Part shown: positions 17,394 to 52,240 of the stretch, in pieces | How positions within the stretch are numbered: position 1 is the stretch's first letter | How the letters are laid out: each line of letters starts with the position of its first letter | Assembly (NCBI RefSeq): GCF_010119195.1 | Contig: NZ_WRXL01000007.1 | Location: 1-64,000 of the forward strand | Reading direction: 5' to 3' | From: Haloarcula salina | GTDB lineage: Archaea > Halobacteriota > Halobacteria > Halobacteriales > Haloarculaceae | DNA: 64,000 nt | Program-made: the position numbers and the translations under genes | Notes under the pieces: generated by a model | The model's database searches: none | What the model saw: only the letters and a program-made list of their open reading frames with translations | Told to the model about the DNA's origin: nothing

Positions 17394-18542
17394 ATGCGCT
17401 TGCACGAATACCAGGCGAAGCAAGTCTTCGCTGACGCGGGAGTTCCCACGCCCGCATCGCAGCTAGCTACAACGGTGGACGAGGCCGTCGACGCGGCCGA
17501 GGATATCGGGTATCCGGTCGCCATCAAGGCACAGGTCCACGTCGGCGGCCGCGGCAAGGCCGGCGGCATCAAGCTCGTCGAGAACAAGGAGGAGGCCGAG
17601 GAGGCCGCCGACGCCATCCTCGGGATGGACCTCAAGGGCTACCACGTCTCGAAGGTCCTCGTCGAGGAGGCCGTCGACTTCGTCAACGAGCTGTACGTCG
17701 GCGTGACGATGGACCGCGGCGAGGGCGAGCCGGTCGCCATGGTCTCGACGAAGGGCGGCGTCAACATCGAGGAGGTCGCCGAGGAAGACCCCGACGCCAT
17801 CGCCCGCGAGCACATCGATCCCGCGTTCGGGATGCACCCCTTCCAGGCCCGGAAGGTCGTCTACGAGGCCGGCGTCGACCGCGACGTGGCCAACGACGTG
17901 GCGAGCGTCCTGACCACGCTCTACCAGCTCTGGGACGACCGCGACGGCAGCGACGTCGAGGTCAACCCCCTGATGATCACGAGCGACGACGAGGTCATCG
18001 CGGCAGACGCCGTGATGAACATCGACGACGACGCGCTGTTCCGCCAGCCCGAAATCGCGGAGATGGGCGAAGAAGCGGAAGAGGGCGACGAACTCGAACA
18101 GAAGGCCGACGAGTACGGCTTCGACTACGTCCGTCTCGACGGGAACGTCGGCATCATCGGCAACGGCGCGGGCCTCGTGATGACGACGCTCGACCTCGTG
18201 GACTACTACGGCGGCGAGCCGGCTAACTTCCTCGACGTGGGCGGCGGCGCGAAGGCCGACCGCATCGCGAACGCCCTCGACATGGTGTTCTCTGACGACA
18301 ACGTCGACTCGGTCGTCTTCAACATCTTCGGCGGCATCACCCGCGGCGACGAGGTCGCCAACGGGATCAACCAGGCCCTGGAGCAGTTCGACGAGATTCC
18401 GAAGCCCGTCACCGTCCGCCTCGCCGGCACGAACGCCGAGGAGGGGATGGAGATCCTGAACGAGGACCTGGTCACGGTCGAGCACACGCTGGAGGACGCC
18501 GTCCAGCGTGCAGTCGAATACGCGAAGGAGGTGGAAGCATGA
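17394..18542 (+). CDS. sucC: succinate-CoA ligase (ADP-forming), beta subunit
   Basis: 382 residues, ATP-grasp fold. With SucD it interconverts succinyl-CoA and succinate in the TCA cycle with substrate-level phosphorylation. The start [20 protein letters not shown] is typical. The ATP-grasp loop [14 protein letters not shown] and the metal and phosphate region EVNPLMI are visible, and [13 protein letters not shown] lies at the C-terminal ligase domain. The stop overlaps the sucD ATG (ATGA), so the subunits are translationally coupled. Confidence 0.97.
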
Positions 18543-19411
18543 GTGTGCTAGTCGACGAAGACACGCGCGTCGTTGTACAGGGAATCACCGGCGGTGAAGG
18601 GAAGTTCCACACCGAACAGATGCTGGAGTACGGCACCAACGTGGTCGCCGGGGCCGTCCCCGGCCGCGGCGGGCAGGAAGTCGCCGGCGTCCCGGTCTAC
18701 GACACGGTCCAGCAGGCCGCCCGCGAGGAGGACGCCAACGCCTCCGTCGTGTTCGTGCCGCCCGCGTTCGCGGCCGACGCCTGTTTCGAGGCGCTGGACG
18801 CGAAGGGCATCGACCTCGTCGTCGCCATCACCGAGGGCATCCCGACCCAGGACATGGCGCGGGTCTACCGCAAGCAGCAGGAGACCGACACGCACCTCGT
18901 CGGGCCGAACTGCCCCGGCGTCATCACGCCCGGCGTCGCCAAGCTCGGCATCCTGCCCGGTAACATCTTCTCCGAGGGGAACGTCGGCCTCGTCTCCCGC
19001 TCGGGTACGCTGACCTACCAGGTCGTCGACAACCTCACCGACCGCGGCCTCGGGCAGACGACCGCCATCGGCATCGGCGGCGACCCGATCATCGGGACGG
19101 ACTTCATCGACGCGCTCGAACTGTTCGAAGCCGACCCCGACACCCACGCCGTCGTCATGTGCGGCGAGATCGGCGGCGAGGACGAGGAGGAGGCCGCCCG
19201 CTTCATCGGCCAGAACATGGACACGCCCGTCGCCGGATTCATCGCCGGCCGCACCGCCCCGCCGGGCAAGCGCATGGGCCACGCCGGCGCGATCGTCTCC
19301 GGCTCCGGGACCGGGACCGCCGAGTCGAAGATCAACGCCCTCGAGAACAACGGCGTGCCGGTCGGCGACACGCCGGAAGAAGTCGCGGACCACATCGAAG
19401 ACCTGCTGTAA
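18539..19411 (+). CDS. sucD: succinate-CoA ligase (ADP-forming), alpha subunit
   Basis: 290 residues. It has a Rossmann CoA-binding domain ([19 protein letters not shown]) and [11 protein letters not shown]. The phosphohistidine loop is [17 protein letters not shown], where the His is transiently phosphorylated. It ends [19 protein letters not shown]. About 90 bases of its 3' end are repeated immediately downstream, interrupted by a hairpin insertion; the intact gene itself is full length. Confidence 0.97.
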
Positions 19412-19430
19412 CAGGAGATGAAACCCGGCG

Positions 19431-19603
19431 TCGACGATCACCGCCCTGGAGAACAACGGCGTCCTGCGCGAATGGGGCGCGGTCGACCGGCGGGAGACCC
19501 GCCCCGAGCGCAGGGCTCGATAGACGAACGGAGTGAGTCTATCGGCGTGCCGGTCGGCGACACGCCGGAGGAAGTCGCGGACCACATCGAAGACCTGCTG
19601 TAG
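19431..19603 (+). pseudogene. interrupted second copy of the sucD 3' end
   Basis: Bases 19431-19462 match sucD 19325-19356 with 3 mismatches in 32. Bases 19544-19603 match 19352-19411 with 2 mismatches in 60, down to the stop codon (TAG against TAA). Both parts share GGCGT, at 19458-19462 and 19544-19548, and the 81 bases between are unrelated to sucD. A reading frame from 19418 ends in the exact SucD C-terminus [19 protein letters not shown], but it has no conserved N-terminus and no visible promoter. Confidence 0.88.
19463..19543. repeat. 81-bp two-hairpin insertion with 5-bp flanking direct repeat
   Basis: The insertion is made of two adjacent hairpins. The first, 19463-19514, has outer arms CCTGCGC and GCGCAGG and inner arms GGGGCG and CGCCCC. 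The second, 19519-19543, has 7-bp arms GATAGAC and GTCTATC around the 11-base loop GAACGGAGTGA. It splits the sucD copy and is bounded by GGCGT on both sides, like a target-site duplication. No protein is encoded. The second hairpin has the same arm length and loop length as the one at 52063-52087. Confidence 0.8.
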
Positions 19604-51939: not shown

Positions 51940-52013
51940 GGGCGTGTGGCCTAGTGGACTAGGGTGAGGGGTTCCTAACCCCTAGATCGCGGGTTCGAAT
52001 CCCGCCACGCCCG
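51940..52013 (+). tRNA. tRNA-Arg (anticodon CCT)
   Basis: 74 bases. Acceptor arms GGGCGTG and CACGCCC pair fully, discriminator G. The anticodon stem AGGGG/CCCCT encloses the loop TTCCTAA with anticodon CCT, reading AGG. The T arm is GCGGG-TTCGAAT-CCCGC. The D stem uses two G-T wobbles. No intron. No CCA is encoded. Partial copies of its 3' half continue downstream for more than 200 bases. Confidence 0.93.
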
Positions 52014-52043
52014 TTACCGCCGAGCGATAGCGAGGCGTGTAAC
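52013..52043. repeat. hairpin 1 after the tRNA
   Basis: GTTAC-CGCC pairs with GGCG-t-GTAAC around GAGCGATAGCGA, which keeps the GA-GC..GC-GA frame of the common core with a four-base GATA tip. It begins with the last base of the tRNA. Confidence 0.65.
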
Positions 52044-52240
52044 GGCACGGGATTCGAATCACGCGAGACGAGCGAAGCGAGTCTCGCTTCGGGTTCGAAT
52101 CCCGAGAGACGCGGGAGCGTCTCTCGACGTTCGCGAAGCCTGTGGCTTTGCTCACTCCCGCCACGCCCGCTCACTCGCGGTGCTCGTTCGCGGCCGTGGC
52201 GATCCTCGCGAACGCGTTGCGTTCGCTCAGTCCCGCACGC
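52044..52240. repeat. hairpins alternating with partial copies of the tRNA-Arg 3' end
   Basis: Copies of the tRNA 3' half: a decayed T-arm at 52049-52060; the exact 15-base T-arm CGGGTTCGAATCCCG at 52090-52104; the exact 14-base acceptor end TCCCGCCACGCCCG at 52156-52169; and TCCCGCACGC at 52231-52240. Between them lie hairpins at 52063-52087 (GCGAGAC, loop GAGCGAAGCGA, GTCTCGC), 52103-52126 (10-bp stem, GGGA tip), 52133-52151 (GCGAAGCC/GGCTTTGC) and 52208-52226 (GCGAACGC/GCGTTCGC). No gene is present from 52014 to 52330. Confidence 0.85.

Follow-up and report, generated by a model that had tools for sequence, protein, structure and literature searches.

Hairpin arrays containing copied tRNA 3' ends behind tRNA-Arg(CCT) of Haloarcula salina and many other tRNA genes of Halobacteria

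Background

The nearest known architecture to the arrays described here is the tyrT/rtT repeat of Escherichia coli, in which repeats located behind a tRNA gene each contain a piece of its 3' end. At tyrT of E. coli K-12, which we checked, three rtT copies share 19 nt at a spacing of exactly 178 nt; the repeat is homogeneous and confined to this one locus, and all of its tRNA pieces are in direct orientation. In contrast, the haloarchaeal arrays are found behind many tRNA genes, comprise several hairpin families, and include inverted copies as well as GA hairpins. Their bodies and lengths vary within a single array, unlike the fixed-length homogeneous repeat of the rtT type.

The T-loop is a known crossover sublocation of tRNA-integrating elements. 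Tyrosine-integrase elements of the SNJ2, SSV and pT26-2 type resemble the arrays in that the 3' end of the tRNA is directly duplicated, the gene remains intact, and the block of identity starts at the T-loop. The array units differ from these elements, however, in their length of 90-135 nt, the lack of cargo and integrase, the presence of inverted copies, and the occurrence of identical bodies at many tRNAs. For SNJ2 integration in haloarchaea a 14-nt att site has been described (PMC8371274). Casposons (Cas1) integrate at tRNA gene 3' ends and produce a target duplication of 14-15 bp (PMC6977970), and the arrays similarly involve the very 3' end of the tRNA gene and a target duplication; yet the block copied in the arrays measures 21-22 nt, an inverted copy is present, and tRNA-independent terminal inverted repeats are absent. 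No casposon genes were seen inside the units.

REP and MITE-like palindromes, including archaeal MITEs, are likewise short non-coding hairpins which are dispersed, vary between genomes, and occur with the same body in many places. Unlike these palindromes, the units sit mostly behind tRNA genes and have ends copied from the local gene; the arms of a unit are local tRNA sequence, and the DNA-level comparisons turned up no parent element. In a comparison with CRISPR arrays, the segments in the place of spacers are recurring hairpin families. We found no account of these haloarchaeal arrays in the open-access literature, and we regard their novelty as provisional.

Results and discussion

The array behind tRNA-Arg(CCT)

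The window, that is, the whole stretch of 64,000 nt which was analyzed (C12:1-64000), belongs to the 3.79 Mb genome of Haloarcula salina, which consists of 14 contigs. Its tRNA-Arg(CCT) gene lies between a tatA-like gene on one side and a GMC oxidoreductase gene on the other, and is followed by these features:

51940-52013, + strand: tRNA-Arg(CCT) gene, anchor of the array (ARAGORN; Rfam tRNA 66.7 bits)
52014-52042, + strand: hairpin 1, with tandem GA/GA loop (CGCC-GA-GC..GC-GA-GGCG)
52048-52060, - strand: inverted copy of the tRNA T-arm (CGGGATTCGAATC; 11 nt at 100%)
52063-52087, + strand: hairpin 2, exchangeable body (GCGAGAC-GA-GC-GAA-GC-GA-GTCTCGC), within a match of covariance model R1 at 52051-52100
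52090-52104, + strand: direct T-arm copy (CGGGTTCGAATCCCG; 15 nt identical)
52103-52126, + strand: hairpin 3 (CGAGAGACGC/GCGTCTCTCG)
52130-52154, + strand: hairpin 4 (TTCGCGAAGCC..GGCTTTGCTCA), the body of a type C unit of reversed orientation; same type in relatives
52156-52169, + strand: direct copy of the 14 nt at the tRNA 3' terminus (TCCCGCCACGCCCG; 100%)
52190-52201, - strand: inverted copy of the acceptor 3' strand (GCGGCCGTGGCG; 12 nt, 92%)
52207-52226, + strand: hairpin 5 (CGCGAACGC..GCGTTCGC)
52231-52240, + strand: weak, degenerate final direct piece of the tRNA 3' end (TCCCGCACGC; by inspection)

A first-pass annotation had described this region as a ladder of pieces of the tRNA 3' half alternating with five hairpins. 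The ladder and its hairpins are indeed present, with direct pieces of 15 and 14 nt, two further pieces which turned out to be inverted, and a weak fifth one for which automated copy searches yielded no near-exact tRNA 3'-end copy at 52231-52240. What has been copied, however, falls short of the 3' half of the tRNA: it comprises the T-arm together with the acceptor strand on the 3' side and runs from T-loop to discriminator. The exact inverted piece, CGGGATTCGAA at 52048-52058, comprises 11 nt which are 100% identical to the 3' end of tRNA-Arg(CCT).

The 3' end of the own tRNA is a better match to the array than that of any other tRNA in the genome, and the best match of model R1 (other genomes only) in the entire 64 kb is located at 52051-52100 on the + strand (62.5 bits, E = 7.7e-15), which together exclude a chance origin of the copies. 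Only the tRNA itself passed the Rfam gathering scores, the array having no match to a curated family. The RNA fold of 52014-52240, with its five hairpins, is more stable than that of 200 out of 200 shuffled sequences (z = -4.7), and the reverse strand is nearly as foldable (z = -4.1). When the array was used as a DNA query, the first matches were three other sites in the same genome, each just 3' of another tRNA gene.

Viral contigs scanned with two unit patterns gave no match, and the Arg(CCT) array itself matched no phage and only tRNA-like sequence in plasmids (four matches); viruses, phages and plasmids were rejected as carriers on these grounds.

Distribution over tRNAs, genomes and classes

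What was noticed at tRNA-Arg(CCT) is not peculiar to this locus but is one case of a class-wide haloarchaeal pattern found at many tRNAs. In a set of four genomes (the window genome, that of a congener, and one each from another genus of the family and from another family), 74 out of 166 tRNAs (16/41, 13/42, 24/41 and 21/42 per genome) have their own terminal 17 nt repeated almost exactly within 400 nt downstream, compared with 0.5-0.8% for the ends of other tRNAs and none for reversed sequence. With the 11-nt core of the T-arm, at least one copy was detected behind 98 of the 166 tRNAs, and 264 copies were counted in total vs 7 in reversed sequence. In 82 of these 98 cases the copy nearest the tRNA is inverted, and in 16 it is direct; from one copy to the next, transitions from inverted to direct (100) and from direct to inverted (47) outnumber direct-direct (13) and inverted-inverted (6) ones, so that the two orientations alternate. 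Some arrays contain four complete units, corresponding to eight T-arm copies. Under the strict 17-nt criterion, Ala(TGC), Leu(CAG), Ser(GCT) and Tyr had no own-end copy in the four genomes. In the window genome, an ATG is found within about 30 nt downstream of Leu(CAG) and Ser(GCT).

The pattern of an inverted T-arm, 17-47 nt and a direct T-arm was present in 284 out of 292 genomes and 75 out of 77 genera of Halobacteria, and its reversed form had zero matches in all 292 genomes. Other classes of the phylum showed one or two matches per genome in a minority of genomes, within twofold of the control, and several of the listed matches outside Halobacteria resemble tRNA bodies. Type counts from these class-wide scans are drawn from the matches listed and do not represent a census. 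Among 30 retrieved pattern loci, 22 lie 32-80 nt 3' of a tRNA on the same strand, and occupancy of a given tRNA differs between genomes. By far the most pattern matches per genome among the 292 were seen in two members of one genus, G044 (37) and G035 (25), with genomes of only 2.1-2.2 Mb.

Model R1 gave a similar distribution in the four genomes: 75 of its 82 matches fall no further than 700 nt downstream of a tRNA, a zone which makes up 0.44% of the strand space. By inspection, three of the remaining seven lie behind tRNA-Gln(CTG) genes missed by Rfam and two beside displaced tRNA ends. Unit-bearing tRNA-Gln(CTG) genes absent from the Rfam tRNA list are located at L348 (window genome), L349 (G004) and L352 (G291), the copy in G291 seemingly containing an intron. 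At L250, L261, L283, L350 and L096, units adjoin fragments of displaced tRNA 3' ends or DNA of foreign appearance; displaced ends beside units are expected if a larger element integrates into a tRNA already bearing units. A relaxed ARAGORN search for tRNAs near orphan units returned noise only. At C1:483816-484245 of G291, away from the listed tRNAs, the GA hairpin core GACGAGCGTAGCGAGTC is repeated eight times at a spacing of exactly 59 nt.

Unit anatomy and hairpin structure

A unit of approximately 90-135 nt consists, in this order, of hairpin 1, an inverted T-arm, hairpin 2 and a direct copy reaching from T-loop to discriminator (the 21-22 nt block), and follows the 3' end of the gene. A tandem GA/GA internal loop is present in both hairpins. 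Within 400 nt behind the tRNAs of the four genomes such loops occur 108 times on the tRNA strand and 14 times as the complementary TC type, and ten other mismatch pairs tested in the same 400 nt are few; a second orientation count of GA hairpins gave 130 vs 8. This fixed orientation led us to reject freely reversible inversion at the inverted T-arms, and it fits selection on RNA and recombination on folded single strands equally, thus not discriminating between them.

Standard pairs account for 97% of cells in one family of hairpin 2 and for 95% in another, and each of the two shows 27 double-sided changes, a value reached by 0 out of 500 shuffles. Because these sequences had been preselected by a pattern fixing most of the arms, only the variable T-loop base and the hairpin itself count as independent evidence. 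The T-loop base agrees between the arms in 111 of 117 cases, in a hand-copied subset for which the palindromic orientation was chosen by eye. Inside the stems of hairpin 2, wobble pairs of the G-T type (8) compare with 5 of the A-C type, which does not discriminate for or against selection on RNA; a dense tally of such pairs was noisy and was set aside.

Covarying stems, arms in which the variable T-loop base changes together with that of the local tRNA, a single hairpin orientation relative to the tRNA and the class-wide occurrence are what would be expected if the units were trailers of the tRNA transcripts whose RNA structure is under selection, for 3' processing, for termination or as tRNA-like small RNA released by RNase Z, with gene conversion reshuffling the arrays in polyploid haloarchaea. 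Hairpins are able to terminate transcription in Haloferax volcanii (PMC7237163), which would suit such a role. On the other hand, T-runs do not mark the array ends, the same tRNA is variably occupied between genomes and units turn over between sister species, and the same hairpin type is found at protein genes. Judged from sequence, this explanation appears rather unlikely to us.

Local ends and shared hairpin bodies

The type I hairpin family has at least 80 units in the named genomes, and 76 of the 80 listed are located directly behind a tRNA on the same strand; among the matches listed, they occur at no fewer than 24 tRNA species (at least 24). The 11 nt after the T-loop in the listed type I units are 92% identical to the tRNA they follow and 46% identical to others. 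In the same units identity to the own tRNA starts abruptly: it is 0.11 (0.14 to other tRNAs) at the position two bases before G53, 0.96 (others 0.55) at the variable T-loop base (+4), and 0.92 (others 0.22) at position +11, remaining between 0.84 and 0.99 from the variable T-loop base to the end. In the inverted arm of the listed type I units local identity fades beyond the T-stem. A separate test of the inverted acceptor part, run without anchoring, gave no signal of own-tRNA specificity.

The hairpin bodies behave differently. In the four genomes, a similarity of 85% or more is reached by 25 out of 1299 pairs of hairpin-2 bodies taken from different tRNAs of the same genome, some being identical across 34-36 nt; for hairpin 1 the corresponding number is 3 out of 1993 pairs. 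Within one array, bodies of hairpin 1 and of hairpin 2 are each shared in 12-13% of pairs. Beyond a single genome, hairpin bodies also recur in genera of different families. The copied ends are thus strictly local, whereas the hairpin body is non-local.

Both halves of this observation bear on the question of whether the arrays are simply att-site residues of one or several deleted ordinary integrative elements. Integrases do target tRNA 3' ends, the SNJ2 att site of 14 nt (PMC8371274) has the length of the copy at 52156-52169, and some units adjoin displaced partial tRNAs; but the units contain no cargo, they include inverted copies, a few hairpin families recur throughout the class, and local ends exist at the 24 or more tRNA species mentioned above. 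No integrase domain is present near Arg(CCT), the only one on the contig being situated at C12:166063. We consider such an origin very improbable. With a large proportion of the tRNAs of the class involved, the pattern is not adequately described as ordinary att scars, a point which the first-pass annotation had already made for the single locus.

The arrays could also arise with no dedicated element at all, by replication slippage and template switching in hairpin-prone DNA behind tRNAs, which would rewrite the hairpins as well. Such events would predict copies of alternating orientation with hairpins between them, and both the joint change of the two hairpin arms and the sharing of hairpin 1 within arrays are in agreement with it. 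Local slippage cannot, however, produce identical bodies of up to 36 nt at different tRNAs and across families, and the pattern is near chance outside Halobacteria despite similar T-loops. An origin by slippage and template switching alone appears quite unlikely to us.

Variation among congeners

The tRNA-Arg(CCT) locus was compared in 24 congeners, and the arrays were parsed automatically into types A to F; remnants of B and D at array ends were read from the locus sequences, outside this parsing. All array comparisons are between species. Twelve species with a common downstream gene differ in the number, type and order of their units, as anticipated by the proposal that unit number varies at this tRNA, and a single array conserved everywhere is contradicted by them. 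Read from the tRNA outward, examples are F C, C, C B and A C D, and further orders are B A C D, B C B, F C B, C F and D B C. As C-F coexists with F-C and B..D with D..B, one ancestral order followed by loss is not sufficient unless types were duplicated. Species which are about 93% identical over the locus carry different hairpins inside an otherwise conserved unit C, the hairpin having been swapped there as a block between sister species.

The conflicting orders imply repeated events at the Arg(CCT) terminus, in line with the earlier suggestion of repeated insertion at one point. The further expectation that copies proximal to the tRNA should be younger was not borne out clearly: mismatches per 17 nt amount to 1.68, 1.76 and 1.87 with increasing rank from the tRNA. 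In the absence of a clear decay with rank, stepwise insertion beside the tRNA is not favoured over duplication, loss or hairpin exchange.

A protein-gene parallel at sucD

The window contains a second R1 match (19516-19547, 24 bits), which is located at the end of a protein-coding gene:

18539-19411, + strand: sucD (succinyl-CoA ligase alpha)
19351-19410, + strand: 3'-terminal 60 nt of sucD, copy one
19430-19462, + strand: partial copy (33 nt, 91%) of the sucD sequence just 5' of the duplicated end
19463-19514, + strand: GA-type hairpin (CCTGCGC-GA..GA-GCGCAGG; by inspection)
19518-19544, + strand: GA-type hairpin CGATAGACGAACGGAGTGAGTCTATCG, at the second R1 match
19543-19602, + strand: copy two of the sucD 3' end (98%)

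The two end copies are 192 nt apart, with the two GA hairpins between them. Among 29 congeners, the window genome counted, the sucD end is duplicated in 7 and single in 22. The offset of the duplicated ends ranges from 148 to 327 nt, and 48-50 of 50 positions are identical between the copies of one genome; between genomes the sucD ends show up to 7 differences in 50 from the window. In many genomes with a single copy, the sucD end abuts the sequence which follows the second copy in Haloarcula salina. In G009 and G288 the same hairpin type is also found beside gene-end repeats of 23-24 nt, at a gene which is dnaK-like by its C-terminal sequence, judged by eye. These data suggest that gene 3' ends are duplicated around GA hairpins by a general process, and that the tRNA arrays are its commonest form.

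Directly after the sucD stop codon, another GC-rich hairpin repeat, of the GGTCTGCGGCG..CGCCGCAGAC type, is found at L380, L381, L382 and L384 (G553, G009, G002 and G007, respectively), and it is tandem in several genomes. With a different repeat at its stop codon, the end of sucD looks like a repeat hot spot. The sucD inserts at L365, L372 and L361 (G005, G023 and G555) contain a hairpin CTCGATAG..CTATCG with extra hairpins in its loop and a short edge repeat, as if the hairpin modules in these inserts were nested.

Conclusions

The account which we prefer, and to which we give about an even chance of being right, is that the arrays are small non-coding mini-elements, i.e. mobile or exchanged hairpin modules anchored where the 3' ends of host genes, mostly those of tRNAs, have been duplicated. 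The sharp edge at the T-loop, the local arms on both sides and the shared bodies point to placement or exchange of hairpin 2 at T-loops. Hairpin 2 would be the part that spreads, being placed beside, or exchanged between, T-loop sequences, which contain GGTTC in all tRNAs. The flanking copies would be templated by the local tRNA, and the host gene would thereby always retain an intact 3' end. Arrays may grow and shrink by duplication or deletion between direct copies, events which would also spread hairpin 1 inside one array, and the sucD locus suggests that the same process may act at protein genes. Candidate machineries are a recombinase whose substrate is a folded single strand, or copying primed by homology in these polyploid cells; no recombinase or transposase was found to be linked to the units. 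A mobile segment normally carries its own arms, and the local arms thus require an extra copying step; deletion between direct repeats would yield empty sites as well, which leaves gain and loss unpolarised.

A stronger version of this account, which we put forward tentatively and regard as possible rather than probable, is that an active, class-wide system with a dedicated enzyme places or exchanges hairpin cassettes at the T-loops behind tRNA genes and some protein genes, copying the local end. This would amount to an integron-like, gene-free cassette array with tRNA ends as attachment sites.

If the mini-element account is right, a sizeable share of the tRNA genes of Halobacteria head fast-changing arrays which standard annotation leaves unnamed. 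The arrays would then provide a tractable system for studying how tiny non-coding DNA spreads while sparing essential genes, might involve a new recombination activity, and would give grounds to look again, in Haloferax-type models, at how tRNA 3' ends are processed, at termination and at hot spots of integration.
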